Of a stretch of 64,000 bases of DNA, positions 43,701-63,424 are shown piece by piece. Source of the stretch: Cymodocea nodosa (lineage: Eukaryota; Streptophyta; Magnoliopsida; Alismatales; Cymodoceaceae). The position numbers and the translations under genes were made by a program. The stretch spans positions 16,512,001-16,576,000 of the forward strand of contig CM072343.1 of assembly GCA_036874045.1 (NCBI GenBank). The letters run 5' to 3'. How positions within the stretch are numbered: position 1 is the stretch's first letter; the number at the start of each line of letters is the position of its first letter. The notes under the pieces are model-generated. The model searched no databases. It was not told where the DNA came from and saw only the letters and a list, made by a program, of their open reading frames with translations.

Positions 43701-46700
43701 TCAAGAACACCTCGGACAATTACAGGCTCCCCTGCCATCCAGTGTCTTTGAAAATGTTCAACGTCATCATCAGACAAGTTGACTGCTTTTGGAGAGTACA
43801 CAAAGTTATCATGACCATTTTCTCGGCTAGCTGCTTGCCGAATGTCACCATCATTTTGTTTATATCCTTCAGATGATACATGAGTGCAACATATATGACA
43901 TCCTCTGGTGAAATTATTATCAGAGAACTTACAATTTACAGTTAGATCCTCTGCATTCTTAAGTAGCTTGACTAGCCAATTAACTTTAAATGTACGCTTC
44001 AACATGAGTAACCCTTTTCCACAGCCACCTCGTTCTTCTGGAGCACAAGGAATGCTACCGTCAGTGTTTGCCGTCCACTCAGGACAATGATCGGATGAAT
44101 CAAAAATAAGAGTGTTTCTTAGAAGCGGATCATTAGCTTCCCATCCAATTCTTTCACTTCTGGCTACGGTTGAGGTTCTTGTGCTCAAGTCTTCAGTCTG
44201 GGATCGCTCAATACAATGTTGACGGGCAGAATTTGCTTCACCGCCACCAGGTTGGCATCCTACACGGAGTTCTTGACAACAAGCCAGACAAAGATCATAG
44301 GAACAATCTGGGCAGCTTCTATAATAGTCAACAATGGAGGTCTGACAGTTGTCACTGTGGATTTTGAACAAGATATTAATAAGGGAAGATACATTAAAAT
44401 AATTCAAATTTCTTAAGGCTCAAGTGGTAATAGTACAGTAAAATGCTATGTTCTGGTAAAAATTATCAATTACATTTTCCCTTCCTAGTAATAGATGTCA
44501 GGTGGTCTTTTTTTGAGCGGTGATATCCAGTTACAGGCTTTTTGTTTTTGAGAAGGGTAAGATTTGAGTCACAAATGTTAAAATAAATCAAGGTACAAAG
44601 GATGATGATCAAAAGGATCATCCAAAAAGGAAAAAAAAAAGAAAAAGAACAAAAGAAAATGGAAAAGACGAATCACTCCGTGAGAAATGAAGCAACCAAA
44701 ATTTTGAAGTACTCTGTTGGCTTCTCAACTCTAGTGTCACATCCCCCTGAAGTTGCTGAAAATAATGTCATTCTGAACTACCCAAATAAACCAGCAAAAA
44801 ACTGCATGAATGGTAATCAGCACCTGGAAAGACTTGAGAGTCCCTACCTTTTTGGTGATGAGTGTGAGGAAAGTCAAGTTAATGACCACAATGTCTCCTA
44901 CATCAGCATGGAAGTCCAAAATTTGTATAATGTCCTCTTGTAATAAATCCCAATTCTTCGGAAACACCAAGATGGGAAATCCATTTATCCTAGAGACTTG
45001 TCCCCGACCATCATAAAGATTGTTTTCTGGAGCTTTTCAGAGAGTTTGCCAATAGCTCGTCCTTATTACTTTATTGATGACATTTTGTTTTTCATCTTTT
45101 TTTCCCTGCACCACCCATCATTTCACTTAACAGCACCTTGGAAAAAAGCACGAACAAGCCACATGCAAGGAAACTTGCACGTATGGTTTTGGCCAGAGAT
45201 GCCAATTATTGTACTAATATAGGTAGGTCCCTGTAATATGAGTGAGATTGTCATGGCACAAAAGCAGATATGGTTTGGTATTCTCTAATTTCCTGTATTG
45301 ATTATGTTTCTTATTCCTTGTCTGACAAAAACTAATCGAGCACCATCTTATATCCCAGAAGTAGAAGCCAAATCAATTGCAGGCTATAATGTAGAATATG
45401 CACAAGATTGGGATGCACAAATTGAATGAGAACCACTACATAGCCATGGTAACTCAGGTCAAAGTACAAGCAATGGCACTATATGGATTGCTGACACTTG
45501 TTACTTGACTAAATTGCAGCAAACAATAAATACAACGAGTCTTATGGGATCTAAATAAAGCCAAGTTAAGCTAAACAAGAGGGAAAGGCCCCAAAGCCAA
45601 GTTGTAGTGAGGATCCTAGGGTGGACCCAAGTCACCCAACATAATCTCTGGGATATAGGCAATAGCAAAGCTCCATTCTATGGCAGTTCAAGCTAGCACT
45701 CCTTTCAACATATCATCTTGCTTAATTCAAAATTCACATCATAAGAAGCACAGTCTCAACTCTCAAGAATATTGAGAGTAGCCATAGCAAAGCCATTTAG
45801 AAATCATACCTTAGAATGTCTCAATCACACAATCTTCCATACTAGAGATCTTCTTCAATTGGAGCCTAGACAAATCAACCGCCAGATGTGAATTCACTTG
45901 TGAAAGTCAAGCAAAGAAGTCTACAAAGCAATGATGTCCCTAAGTTGCCATTTAGAGGCTTTTTAGTTCCCCATTGATCGAAATGTATGTGATCAGATTG
46001 CTCTTTTCATGTTGGAAGCCATTCTATAGAAGAATCTAGTGTTTCTATCACCTTCCTTAAACCACAAAGCTCTCGAACTCTACCACCAAGAAATAACATG
46101 ATGTTTGCAAGAGATTGAATAGGTAAGAGAAAATTCTAGGTTAATTGAGAATAGACATTATAAATTATAGTGTACATGAAGAGAAAAATGTAGAAATGAG
46201 ATTGGAATAATAGTTGATAAAGTCCAAAAGACATTTTTTAATAAAAAAATAGAAGATAAAATTCTAATGATTAAGCTTATAATAGAAGAGGAATACTTAA
46301 TATTATTAGCAAATATGCACAAGTGGGTTGAGAAGTAGAATCAAAATTTAGAGAAAATATAAATAATTTAATTTAAAGTTACTGATGGGTGAAAAACTCT
46401 TTATTGGAAAGGATTAGAATGGAAATAGTGGGGATGAAAATAGAGGGTATAAAATTAACCATGAAAGATTTAGATTTGAATGTGGAAATGAAGGAAACTC
46501 AATTTTAGATTTTACTTTAGCTTGTGATAACAAATATATGCTTTAGGAGGAGAGGGGAACTAATTACAACTAAAAGTGGATTCCAAATAGATTTTTAAGG
46601 AAATATTAAGAGTCTAAAGGAAAAGTACCATTTGGTAAAGAAAGTTGGTGATAGAACGTAGATGTATAAAAAATGATAAAAGAAAAAGGAATGTTACAAA

Positions 46701-52700: not shown

Positions 52701-55700
52701 ATGTCATTAATTTACTTAGTCAGTTCATGCATACTCCTAATGAAACTCACTGGCAAGGTATACTTCAAGTGTTGGCTTACATCAAAAGTGTTCCTTTAGG
52801 TGTTGGCTTACATTAAAAGTGTTCCTGATAAAGGACTTCTATATAAAAAAAAGATCACTTGAAAGTTGAAGGTTATTCTAATGTTGGTTATGCTGGAGAC
52901 AAGATGGATAGAAAATCTAACTCAAGCTACTGTATCTACAATAAGAAATAAGAAATAAAACATTATTTCCAAGTCCAATGTTGAAGTTGAGTATCAAGCA
53001 ATGTCACAAACCACATCTAAGTTAATTTGTACCAAGGCCTTGTTGCAAGAGCTAGAAGTTGGTGTAAGTCTTCTGATGTTGATGTATTGTGACAATCAAA
53101 CTGTTATATATATTGTCAACAATCCTACTTTTCATGAGAAGATGAAATATGTTGAGGTTGATTGTCATTTCATTCGAGATAATGTATTGATAGGTGTGAT
53201 ATTCACCCTTTTTACTCATTTTGAAGATCAGGTTACTGATATTTTCACAAAAGGGTTGGGTGTTAATACCTTCAAAAATTTATGTAACAAATTAGACATA
53301 TTTGATATATATGTTCCAACTTAAGAGGAATTGTAATGGGATCCATTTAACTTTAAATGGATATCCATTTCTGTACTCCTTTATATACCCTTGTATATTC
53401 CTATAAGATGTATAATGCTATTCTGAAATAGTAATCCAACTAATACATGGTGTACAAATTTAGCAATGGTATGAAAAATGATGAAAACATAAAATTGGAC
53501 ATTCAAGAAATCCCCAAAAAGTAAAAATTTTAGATATTTAGGATCCATGATAAATAACAATAGAAAAATTATAGAATATGTTATTGGTAAAATTTAAAAA
53601 GGTTCCATAAAGTGGAAAAACACAATAGTGATGTAATGCAATAAAAAATTCCCTTAAAATTAAAAGGAAAAATCTACAGAAATCTATTCACCAGTTATAT
53701 TTTATGGTAAAAAATGTTTAGTTGTTAAACATGAACATGTGCAAAAGGTTAGTATTATGTATGATAAAATAGTAAGTAGAGTTCAAACTATATTAGAAGA
53801 GACAAGAAATTTTCAAACTAAAACAGGTTTACACTATGGATCATTTCTAAGTCATCTGTTTGTGTAATTATGGACAAAAAATTCAAGGAGGAATATCTTG
53901 ATTTATTTGTTCATGACAGTTTTAGTTAATGAAGGTAAGGTAGAAATTAATTTTAAACTAGAATAATGAAGAGCTACTTAAAATCAAATGATTTGGAATA
54001 AGTATGTCAAAGATTGAATACATAGAATACAAATTTAGTAATGATATTAACAATGATGTAAACATAAAATTGGATGTTTAAAAAATCCTTAAACGTAAGA
54101 ATGTTATATATTTAGGAGCTATAATAAATAATAATAGAGAAATTATAAAAGATGCTATTGACAAAATTGGAAAAGGTTGCATGAAGTAGAGAACACATTA
54201 GTGATGTATAATAACTGTAAGGGTAATGATGTATGAAAGTTATTTGTGTATTATAACTTCATAAGTTTAGTCCCACATTGGTTAAATCATGTTTATCTCT
54301 CTTATGCAATCTCTATATATAGAGGTCTCATCTTTGTTTATGAAATTAATCCACTTCTACCAATCTCTTGCATTCTCACATGGTAGAACTTAGATTTTAA
54401 AATTCTAAGAAGTGTAATAGGTCTAAGTAGAGAGGAGGGAAATCTTAACCATCACACTCCTCCCAACCACCACCACCAGCCCCTATTTAGGTTGCCACCA
54501 CTAATGCCACTGATCTATCCTATCCATTCAAGTTATCGTCGACACTCCTCCTCTTGTGTCCAATCTCTCTCCTACCATTCATCCAAATTTATACTCCCAA
54601 GATCCATTGCTAGAGTTCAAACCTTAATCCTTTATCAAAGGGGTGATCAAGAGGCCAACCATAAACCAAAACATGACCCAAACCTCAAATCTATTTGCAT
54701 CAATGATAGTCGTATCACCACCAACAACTTTCAAGAACAAATATCAAGCAACTATCTACTTGATAGTTACTCTTTGTTGTTTTTCACTTTGTCTTAATGA
54801 ATTTTTCTTATTAATGAACAAAATATTTAGTAAAAGAAGAAACCAATTACCAATACAAACGCTCATCCATGCCAAGTTTAGTCCTCATCACATCCACTTC
54901 TGTTGGCCGTATCCCTAAAGGAGAAAAATGCATCCAAATAAGTTTACTGTGCCTCTAACTTTCCATCAAAAGCTAATAAATAAGAATCCATTTGAACCCA
55001 TCAGAAGTAATAGATTTTGCTTTGAGAATTCCAGCAGATAACATTATGTGAAATGTTATCTTGAATTTCAATGTAGAACATTATATTACATGCATTATTT
55101 TCAATACATAGTCAGGAAACACCTTAGTTGTTTATCACATCAGCTATATAACCTTGAGAATATTGCAGAATTTTTAAATTAATTTTTATATATAAATCCA
55201 TTCTCGAATCACTAGTTGAATGAGAACAAGGGCCATTTAGACCAATAACACATCAACCTGATGATTAAATGTTCTGTGAAACTTTAACTGGATCAATTCT
55301 GAAAATTTGGGTAGTGTTTGGTTTAAATTATAGGTATACTAAATTATATATAATTAAGATTATGCAGATATAAGATAACAAAAATCATATGAATTATATG
55401 TATTATTATGAATATTTTTTATAATTTGTATGTTCAAATTATGCTAGTGTAAATTATAAGTATAAATTGCATAATTCAAGACATAATCCAAGGCACAATC
55501 TTTACATAGTCAATCATATTATACAACCTCTCACAAAGTCATTATGCTTAATCAATCAAATTATAGCCACCATCAGTCATGTTAAAGGCATTTGATTTAG
55601 ATTATAAATATCATCACACAATCCCATAATCAAGTACCCCGTAATCTAAATCAAATGATGCTTTAGTTAATTACCAAGAATATTTGCTTCCATTTCTACT

Positions 55701-61668: not shown

Positions 61669-62000
61669 AAAGGAAGCATGATAATGATACAGATCAAAGA
61701 GTTATAATGAAAGAATGACAATTGGAAATTCAAGAAGAATGTAGGAAAAACTGTGCAAGAGAAGACTCAATTTATAATTCCAGTTTTGTTTGATTTTCTA
61801 TAATTTTATTTTATTTATTTCAAAATTAAAAGCAAAAATTGCTAATTTTACAAACTAATTTTTTACATACATATATATGCACATTCATTGCTCATGGAAT
61901 CAAAGTGAGCAAAGACAATCACTATGATTGTTCAGCCATGAAATACATGTACCTTCTAAGCTAAAGACCACTATTCCATATTTAACCTCATTTTTACCTT
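61669..62000. other. No gene seen
   Basis: Short AT-rich interval between the copia element and the LINE tail. No exon of the JmjC or GH3 gene is visible. Confidence 0.4.
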
Positions 62001-62515
62001 CTATACAACAACAATAACCCAAGTCATAATCCTCACTACGTAAGGTCTATGACATGAATTTTTTTTCTTTTATGTATTCCTATCTATGGTCAAATGTTCA
62101 GTTAAATTACATAAATTTATTTATTTTTCACAATTTCTAACTAAATAGTTTTAAATCTTTGCCTACTTCTAATTACTTCTACTAAATAATTTACCTCTTC
62201 AAACTAATGCATCTTATAGTCTTCTAAAAATATGACTAAACTATTTAAATTGATTTTTCCTTATCTTATCTTCAATTAGTGCAACCACTTCTTTTATAAT
62301 ATTAACACTGATTCATCTAAACATTCATATATTTGTAATACTAACTTTTTACATATAGTCATGTTTTACAACTCAAAATTCTAAATTATAAAATATAGCC
62401 AAACAAATAATAGCTTTATAAAATTTTCCTTTTCATTTTAAGTGTATCATCCTATCACGTAATACTTTAAAAGCATTTCTCTACTCCATCTACCTTGCTT
62501 TAATCCTATGAATAA

Positions 62516-62632
62516 GGTGCATTTACACCTACTACCAAGCACTGACTCCTATAAGAACTCTGGAGTTAACTGTGTTTGGGCAGGAGTAGAACCAGGATGG
62601 GTGACCACTTGGGAAGTTCTCGTGCAGTGCCT
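62516..62632 (+). pseudogene. 5S rRNA-derived sequence (head of the retroposon)
   Basis: Full-length 5S-like segment with scattered changes, strongest over the 3' half, where the type 1 Pol III internal promoter (A box, intermediate element, C box) is located. It is not a functional 5S gene: no T-run terminator follows it directly, and it is fused to a 316-bp body. Confidence 0.8.
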
Positions 62633-62738
62633 ATGAGCAGTTGTGTTGGCTCTGCTCAATCATTGGCAAGCTGTAGCTGTGTCCACCACTTACCAAAGTG
62701 GGCCTAGCAAGGCCCCCTACAAACTTTCGTCTTCTTAG

Positions 62739-62907
62739 ATACTCTTGAGCTGTTTGAATATCCATTGAGACTCACATGTTATCACCTCCATGGATACTTC
62801 TGGTGTATACCAAGCTGTTTGAGTGTCCATGAAGGTTCACCTTCTATCACCTCTAAAGATACTCCTGGTGTTCACCAGGCTGTTTGAGTGTCTAAGGAGG
62901 ACCTTTG
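62739..62907 (+). repeat. Three ~65-bp tandem repeats in the retroposon body
   Basis: Units start ATACTCTTGAGCTG, ATACTTCTGGTGTAT and ATACTCCTGGTGTTC. The first has a ~10-bp deletion, the last is cut short before the poly(A). The shared core is GCTGTTTGAGTGTC, with TATCACCTC near the end of the first two. Confidence 0.75.
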
Positions 62908-63298
62908 AAAAAAAAAAAAAAAAAAAAAATCAGATTGAAAAAAAAAAAAATCCTATGAATAACATCCTCTTATATATTATAAATCCAAAGTACTTAAAGT
63001 CTTACTTTTATGAATCTCACACAACCATCTACTTATATACTTCCATCATTATTCCTAATTTTATTGAACTTACACTCTATATATTTAATTTTTGATCTAT
63101 TCAATATAAATTGATTCAACCCTAAAGGATCTTTGTATAATTCTAATTTAAAACTAATTTTGTCTTACTTTCATCAACCACAACTATGTCATCAATCAAT
63201 AGCATACACCAAAGCATTTTTCCTTGTATTTACTTAATTATTTCATCCATAATTAAGACAAATAAGTACGGACTTGACGAAGACTCCTAGTGTAACCC

Positions 63299-63424
63299 TA
63301 TATTTATTGGAAATTCCTTAATTTCTTCTCCAATAGTTTTAACATTAGTAACTGCTATTTCTATATTTATTGGAAATTCCTTAATTTCTTCTCCAATAGT
63401 TTTAACATTAGTAACTACTATTTC
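63299..63424. repeat. 63-bp tandem duplication in the LINE
   Basis: TATATTTATTGGAAATTCCT and the following 43 bp occur twice in a row with a single difference near the junction. Translated on the minus strand it duplicates VTNVKTIGEEIKEFPINI without breaking the frame. Confidence 0.85.

Follow-up and report, generated by a model that had tools for sequence, protein, structure and literature searches.

A candidate 5S rRNA-derived, poly(A)-tailed SINE family in the monocot Cymodocea nodosa, with many young copies in telomere-type repeats

The window analyzed here, a 64-kb stretch of the Cymodocea nodosa genome (C15:16512001-16576000), carries a retroposed element that, judged from its sequence, we classify as a monocot SINE derived from 5S rRNA, of polymerase III (Pol III) type and with a poly(A) tail. 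The classification follows from a full-length 5S head, constant starts, target site duplications (TSDs), kept promoter boxes, and the lack of a T-run terminator. The explanation that we favor, with a probability of roughly 0.88, is that read-through Pol III transcripts of the element would be mobilized by an L1-type partner that nicks at Y|AA, and that CCCTAAA tracts would act as serial sites for this nick.

The retroposed copy occupies 62515-62948 on the plus strand, from A62515 to the end of its A-tail at about 62948. It is flanked by an exact pair of AATCCTATGAATAA, at 62502-62515 and 62949-62962, a sequence found at only these two places in the window on either strand. The original prediction described perfect 14-bp TSDs; the 14-bp pair is indeed exact, but the element itself probably begins with the final A of the left copy. 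An A precedes the aligned start in 41/46 genomic copies and lies outside the TSD in 12/25 copies with a clear TSD, so the window TSD amounts to 13 bp plus one shared A. The 5S rRNA-derived head (62515-62633, plus strand) matches Rfam model RF00001 across positions 1-120 at 42.8 bits (gathering score, 38), which bears out a full-length 5S-like head and places the start of the element at 5S position 1, give or take one base. The body consists of a first part that is not 5S-like (62634-62734, plus strand), which accompanies the head in full-length copies, and a hairpin-forming tandem array of 65-bp units (62735-62907, plus strand); as foreseen, it does not resemble 5S, with no Rfam family matching 62634-62907 up to an E value of 5. 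The array comprises units at 62748-62812 and 62813-62877 and a partial third, and its folding z score is −3.1, with 3/200 shuffles equally stable. The expected three repeats of ~65 bp describe the family fairly, since the consensus, as we read it, has two full units plus a third of about 51 nt, but they overstate the window copy, in which Tandem Repeats Finder (TRF) counts 2.2 units and the third stretch is 21 nt. The poly(A) tail (62908-62948, plus strand) is present as predicted and consists of A22, then TCAGATTG, and then a second A run. No second copy of the element was found within the 64-kb window, and two stop-free frames in it had no match in the protein database. Exact pieces of the body were not found in prokaryote genomes or viral contigs, nor were pieces of the head in viral contigs; the single viral-contig match was rejected as a 22-base chance match, the rest of that contig being unrelated. 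A-tails broken by short motifs (TCAGATTG, CATTT, or GAAATG) were seen at 62908-62948 and in five further loci (L022, L025, L026, L029, and L035), and such motifs could be marks of source copies or of stepwise tail growth.

Within the head, a 5S-type internal control region with boxes A, IE, and C lies at 62564-62611 on the plus strand. We compared these boxes, using assumed box limits, with the genome's own 5S genes, whose 47 scored matches (of 10,838 first-look candidates) form the best-scoring cluster, at C1:9.26-11.27 Mb with 99.9-110.9 bits. In the consensus of the family, 4/39 box positions are changed relative to the own 5S versus 25/77 outside the boxes (P = 0.012), and in the window copy the respective values are 5/39 and 24/77 (P = 0.041). 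The Pol III boxes had been called intact, a slight overstatement given that in the window copy 1/15 positions in box A, 2/6 in IE, and 2/18 in box C differ from the own 5S. With an assumed Arabidopsis 5S as the reference, boxes and remainder did not differ significantly (7/39 versus 21/77; P = 0.36). Between 5S positions 3 and 109 the head aligns with the own 5S free of indels. The consensus head is identical to the commonest own 5S at 87/117 positions and to the assumed Arabidopsis 5S at 88/116; where these two references differ, the SINE sides with the own 5S at 8 positions, with the other at 6, and with neither at 4. Box C of the window copy holds AGGATGGGTG, given as the canonical C-box in PMC10853983. 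In the loci read, units of the 5S cluster at C1:9.26-11.27 Mb measure about 509 bp. The own 5S genes differ from the assumed Arabidopsis 5S at 17/119 aligned positions; provided that this reference is correct, such a number is unusually high among angiosperms.

The exact TSD also bears on when the head diverged. Had the head moved away from 5S after insertion, an exact 14-bp TSD would have had a probability of 0.0007 to 0.005, in an estimate that used an assumed 5S sequence, published primers, and the boxes. The source of the window copy had therefore probably diverged beforehand, which is expected of a SINE lineage but not of a one-off chimera.

We searched the genome (374,616,459 bases in 28 contigs) with 62516-62907 as a DNA query and obtained at least 49 matches, 40 of 884 first-look candidates having been scored; most are full length and 88 to 98% identical. 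The 5′ 21-mer occurs at 515 places genome-wide at up to 2 mismatches, compared with 0 for the reversed control. Head and body occur together in dozens of full-length copies on many contigs, so the element is multicopy and dispersed; together with constant 5S starts, A-rich tails, and TSDs that differ from copy to copy, this supports the original prediction of a 5S-headed SINE family of this plant. From the window alone, with no second copy in 64 kb, the element might pass for a one-off chimera made when template switching joined 5S RNA to a polyadenylated transcript in a single LINE event, but this reading is refuted by the full-length head-plus-body copies on many contigs and fits badly with a head whose divergence from 5S probably predates an insertion with a still exact TSD, which leaves it a negligible probability.

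To describe the family, we read 46 copies including that of the window (query start ≤6 and end ≥340, other matches being dropped); as the best matches to the window copy, they are biased to the young in age and completeness. GGTGCA forms the first six bases in 41/46 copies. Twelve of the 46 lie in CCCTAA repeats, and the other 34 lack a telomere-type flank. Among these 34 nontelomeric copies, 25 have a clear TSD (score ≥10) and 9 do not; the 25 TSDs are all distinct, with lengths of 12 to 17 bp and one of 25, whereas cross-controls pairing the flanks of different copies gave 2/1122. The TSD starts with AA in 20/25 cases and is preceded by T or C in 23/25, against a frequency of 0.11 for the AA dinucleotide in the flanks; because the TSD can run into the A-tail, the nick was measured by AA beside it and not by the letter A alone. 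A consensus built from 43 copies (3 of the 46 were left out as short or divergent) is 402 nt long, compared with 392 nt for the window copy. In this young-biased sample of 43, the median divergence is 4.1% from the consensus and 6.9% between pairs. Copies measure 361 to 408 nt, plus one of 440 nt; length does vary, which bears out only in part the suggestion that the tandem repeats could set it. Two further 5S-headed sequences, at 270-397 of L013 and in L067 (C19:27799), match the SINE only to about position 182 and then continue in another sequence that they share; they may belong to another SINE family whose 3′ body differs.

Cassandra TSDs are 5 bp long. Cassandra is a known plant retroelement with a 5S promoter, which it carries within its LTRs (PMC10853983), and the present element might accordingly be a Cassandra-type TRIM or a solo LTR with 5S sequence. 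The two do have in common that a non-autonomous plant retroelement has co-opted the 5S promoter. Nonetheless, the 5S sequence here stands at the extreme 5′ end, whereas that of Cassandra, according to PMC10853983, never lies at the LTR termini, and the copies read open with 5S and finish in an A-tail, with TSDs of 12 to 17 bp, not in paired LTRs with the 5-bp TSDs of LTR elements. These features make membership in Cassandra exceedingly improbable. TSDs of 5 bp are likewise given for the plant element Helenus and for Ajax (PMC10886601).

The own 5S genes run into TTTTT in 10/10 cases read, unlike the SINE consensus, which is free of TTTT; the motif occurs in 8/43 copies. As a sign of selection, the lack of TTTT in the 392-nt stretch is not significant, since 465/5000 shuffles and 1224/5000 first-order simulations lack it too. 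AATAAA is absent between head and tail in 46/46 copies and from the consensus. With no AATAAA, no TTTT in the consensus, an A-tail, and an L1-type nick, the family resembles T-minus, L1-mobilized SINEs such as Alu and B1 (PMC8466645), from which its 5S head and plant host set it apart. 5S-derived T-minus families are mentioned for mammals in the same source (PMC8466645).

These features suggest the following route. Through the internal 5S promoter, Pol III would start at 5S +1, and because the element is without the T-run that ends real 5S genes, transcription would read through the body and the encoded A-tail and stop in flanking Ts. An L1-type LINE, to which the nick signature and the TSDs point, would supply endonuclease and reverse transcriptase; it would nick Y|AA sites, prime on the poly(A), and leave a duplication of 12 to 17 bp. 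Telomere repeats would offer the nick site in series, as CCCT|AAA, with the bottom-strand TTT-OH set against the poly(A) for priming. Such serial sites may explain why a large share of young copies lies in CCCTAAA tracts near contig ends in one direction, where they adjoin L1-type LINEs with the same placement.

The positions of the copies are consistent with this route. All 12 telomere-flanked copies among the 46 carry the C-rich strand in the sense of the element. The pattern GGATGGGTGACCACTTGGGAAG has 80 exact places in the genome, 68 of them on contigs of known length. Twenty-two of these 68 lie no more than 100 kb from a contig end, against 0.82 expected, an enrichment of about 27-fold in which nearness to chromosome ends is given by contig position, the contig ends themselves not having been read. 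Most copies (46/68) lie more than 100 kb from contig ends. Near the ends, 21/22 copies face inward (plus at left ends, minus at right ends), versus 24 plus and 22 minus in the interior. A second, overlapping list, made up of 79 of 100 listed places of the 5′ 21-mer (the rest lie on contigs of unknown length), gave 16/79 near ends against 0.83 expected, with 15/16 inward. We read 21 of the 22 near-end copies with their flanks, and 20/21 are in CCCTAA tracts; the exception (C20:1576320) is also the one that faces the other way. The near-end copies left unread are C16:16009819 and C13:50475, the latter being the second list's one outward copy. We compiled 28 5′ ends, 12 of them picked for being telomeric and 16 taken from end loci; 27 have a telomeric flank, including 15 of the latter 16. 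The A-run gives way directly to CCCTAA at 20/23 readable junctions, and one of the other three is a parsing slip. Thus, direction and repeat phase are fixed at telomeric insertions, but insertion is not confined to telomeric repeats, given the 34/46 copies read that lack a telomere-type flank. One copy (L066, at C18:15543808) is 5′ truncated: it begins at the box C region, immediately preceded by CCCTAAACC.

A LINE of roughly 6.1 kb lies between two SINE blocks near the right end of C1 (locus L011, 1621-7950; minus strand, about 7.9 to 1.8 kb). Its several open reading frames hold DUF4283 (E = 1.4e-7), Exo_endo_phos (1.1e-6), RVT_1 (1.5e-6, just under the cut-off), and zf-RVT (2.7e-19), and judged from these domains, not from a tree, it is presumably L1-type. 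Both its start and its short A-tail abut CCCTAAA. Relatives oriented alike with respect to the contig end were seen on C17, C10, C16, C9, C15, and C18, those on C17 being 90% identical over 4.4 kb and, for a second, 71%; further LINE 3′ ends run into CCCTAAA on C1, C16, and C17. Loci L011, L018, and L046 thus hold copies of this LINE at different contig ends, in CCCTAAA tracts and running in the same direction as the SINE, with the ORF2 domains spread over several open reading frames. All these copies come from stretches chosen for their SINE content; they speak for those stretches and are silent on LINE copies elsewhere. Comparison of the SINE consensus with a single telomeric LINE revealed no shared 3′ sequence apart from A. 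The proposed partnership therefore rests on nick site, tail, and location. Relaxed poly(A) recognition has been proposed for plant L1 elements and fits 3′ ends that SINE and LINE do not share (PMC3747384).

Subtelomeric duplication might instead be the main way in which copies reached the contig ends, in place of insertion into telomere repeats time after time. Neighboring LINE sequence does recur at several ends, and subtelomeres exchange readily. On the other hand, the 12 telomere-flanked copies are 69 to 97% identical to the window copy and have their own A-tails, and several different 5′ junctions (CCCA, CCCTA, CCTAA, and ACCTA) occur among them; a further copy is 5′ truncated (L066), and interior copies share the nick preference. 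We therefore consider duplication unlikely as the main route.

A stronger contender, though one we hold rather doubtful, is passive insertion, in which a preference for Y|AAA would be enough for an L1-type endonuclease of any kind to cut CCCT|AAA and copies would survive in telomere repeats because they do little harm there, with no telomere-specialized LINE involved. That interior copies use Y|AA too, and that 46/68 copies are interior, is in keeping with this. Against it stand the about 27-fold enrichment within 100 kb of ends and the LINE copies with junctions in CCCTAAA, the latter met only in SINE-bearing end stretches. Beyond insertion by an L1-type partner with CCCTAAA tracts as serial sites, we raise tentatively, at somewhat less than even odds, that a telomere-targeting L1-type LINE has recruited the 5S-headed SINE; nested, direction-fixed chains of both might then lengthen or buffer chromosome ends alongside telomerase, and the same machinery might seed the SINE genome-wide.

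Known telomere-inserting LINEs are TRAS and SART of Bombyx and Zepp of Chlorella, which lie direction-fixed in telomeric repeats and form nested chains. Here, by comparison, the host is a flowering plant, a SINE takes part, and most SINE copies are interior. By structure, the family appears to be of SINE3 type, with no descent from animal SINE3 claimed. With SINE3 and other 5S SINEs of animals (zebrafish SINE3, HaSE3 of Helicoverpa, and those of fruit-bat and springhare), it has in common a 5S head with Pol III boxes, a body, LINE-dependent spread, and TSDs in some copies (PMC3272025, PMC8466645); its monocot host, poly(A) tail, and many copies in telomere-type repeats distinguish it in this comparison of described features. 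CR1- or RTE-type tails are listed for SINE3/DeuSINE families and Ped-1 (PMC3747384). tRNA-derived plant SINEs with poly(A) are similarly short, poly(A)-tailed, and subject to L1-type mobilization (PMC3747384), but their promoter comes from tRNA and not from 5S rRNA. In the literature consulted, plant SINEs are tRNA derived, and 5S-derived SINEs are animal and, according to one abstract, fungal; no plant 5S-derived SINE was named in the titles or abstract openings of the papers listed, which lie outside subscription journals and Repbase.

The existence of such a young family suggests that in plants, too, a non-LTR element has captured the 5S promoter. It also offers a relative with which to test the speculation that Cassandra originated when a 5S SINE inserted into an LTR (PMC10886601). 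Moreover, the bias to telomere repeats, in a single nick phase and a single direction, hints at the way in which telomeric DNA could become a target for an L1-type endonuclease and poly(A), and retroelement traffic at plant chromosome ends becomes directly testable.

In the window, the SINE sits in a degenerate LINE on the minus strand, at 61990-63420 with approximate limits, which has a (TTG)n-type end near 62010 and an RVT_1 match with an E value of 6.8e-5, below Pfam's cut-off. From its tail type and its likeness to known RTE sequence, we take this host LINE to be RTE-like. A paralogue at 53442-53799 aligns across the joined flanks of the SINE with a score of 164, versus a maximum of 158 in 300 random joins; it did not yield a base-precise empty site, as a joint that kept the two TSD copies reached 182. 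Two 63-bp copies at 63298-63424, 98% alike, lie inside the same old LINE and are a recent local duplication. Elsewhere in the window, a group II intron domain (Rfam RF00029) at 45154-45214 is followed, to about 45400, by sequence that we take to read like mitochondrial nad1, and the stretch from 45154 to about 45400 is probably a nuclear insertion of mitochondrial DNA. Finally, a MoaC/CNX3 gene is located at 8.8-9.4 kb. Its five best named protein matches are from monocots, with Anthurium and Colocasia first, and in a CNX3/MoaC tree built from 30 of the 120 proteins listed and the window sequence (31 rows) it groups with these two Araceae and one further row, with a support of 97/90.
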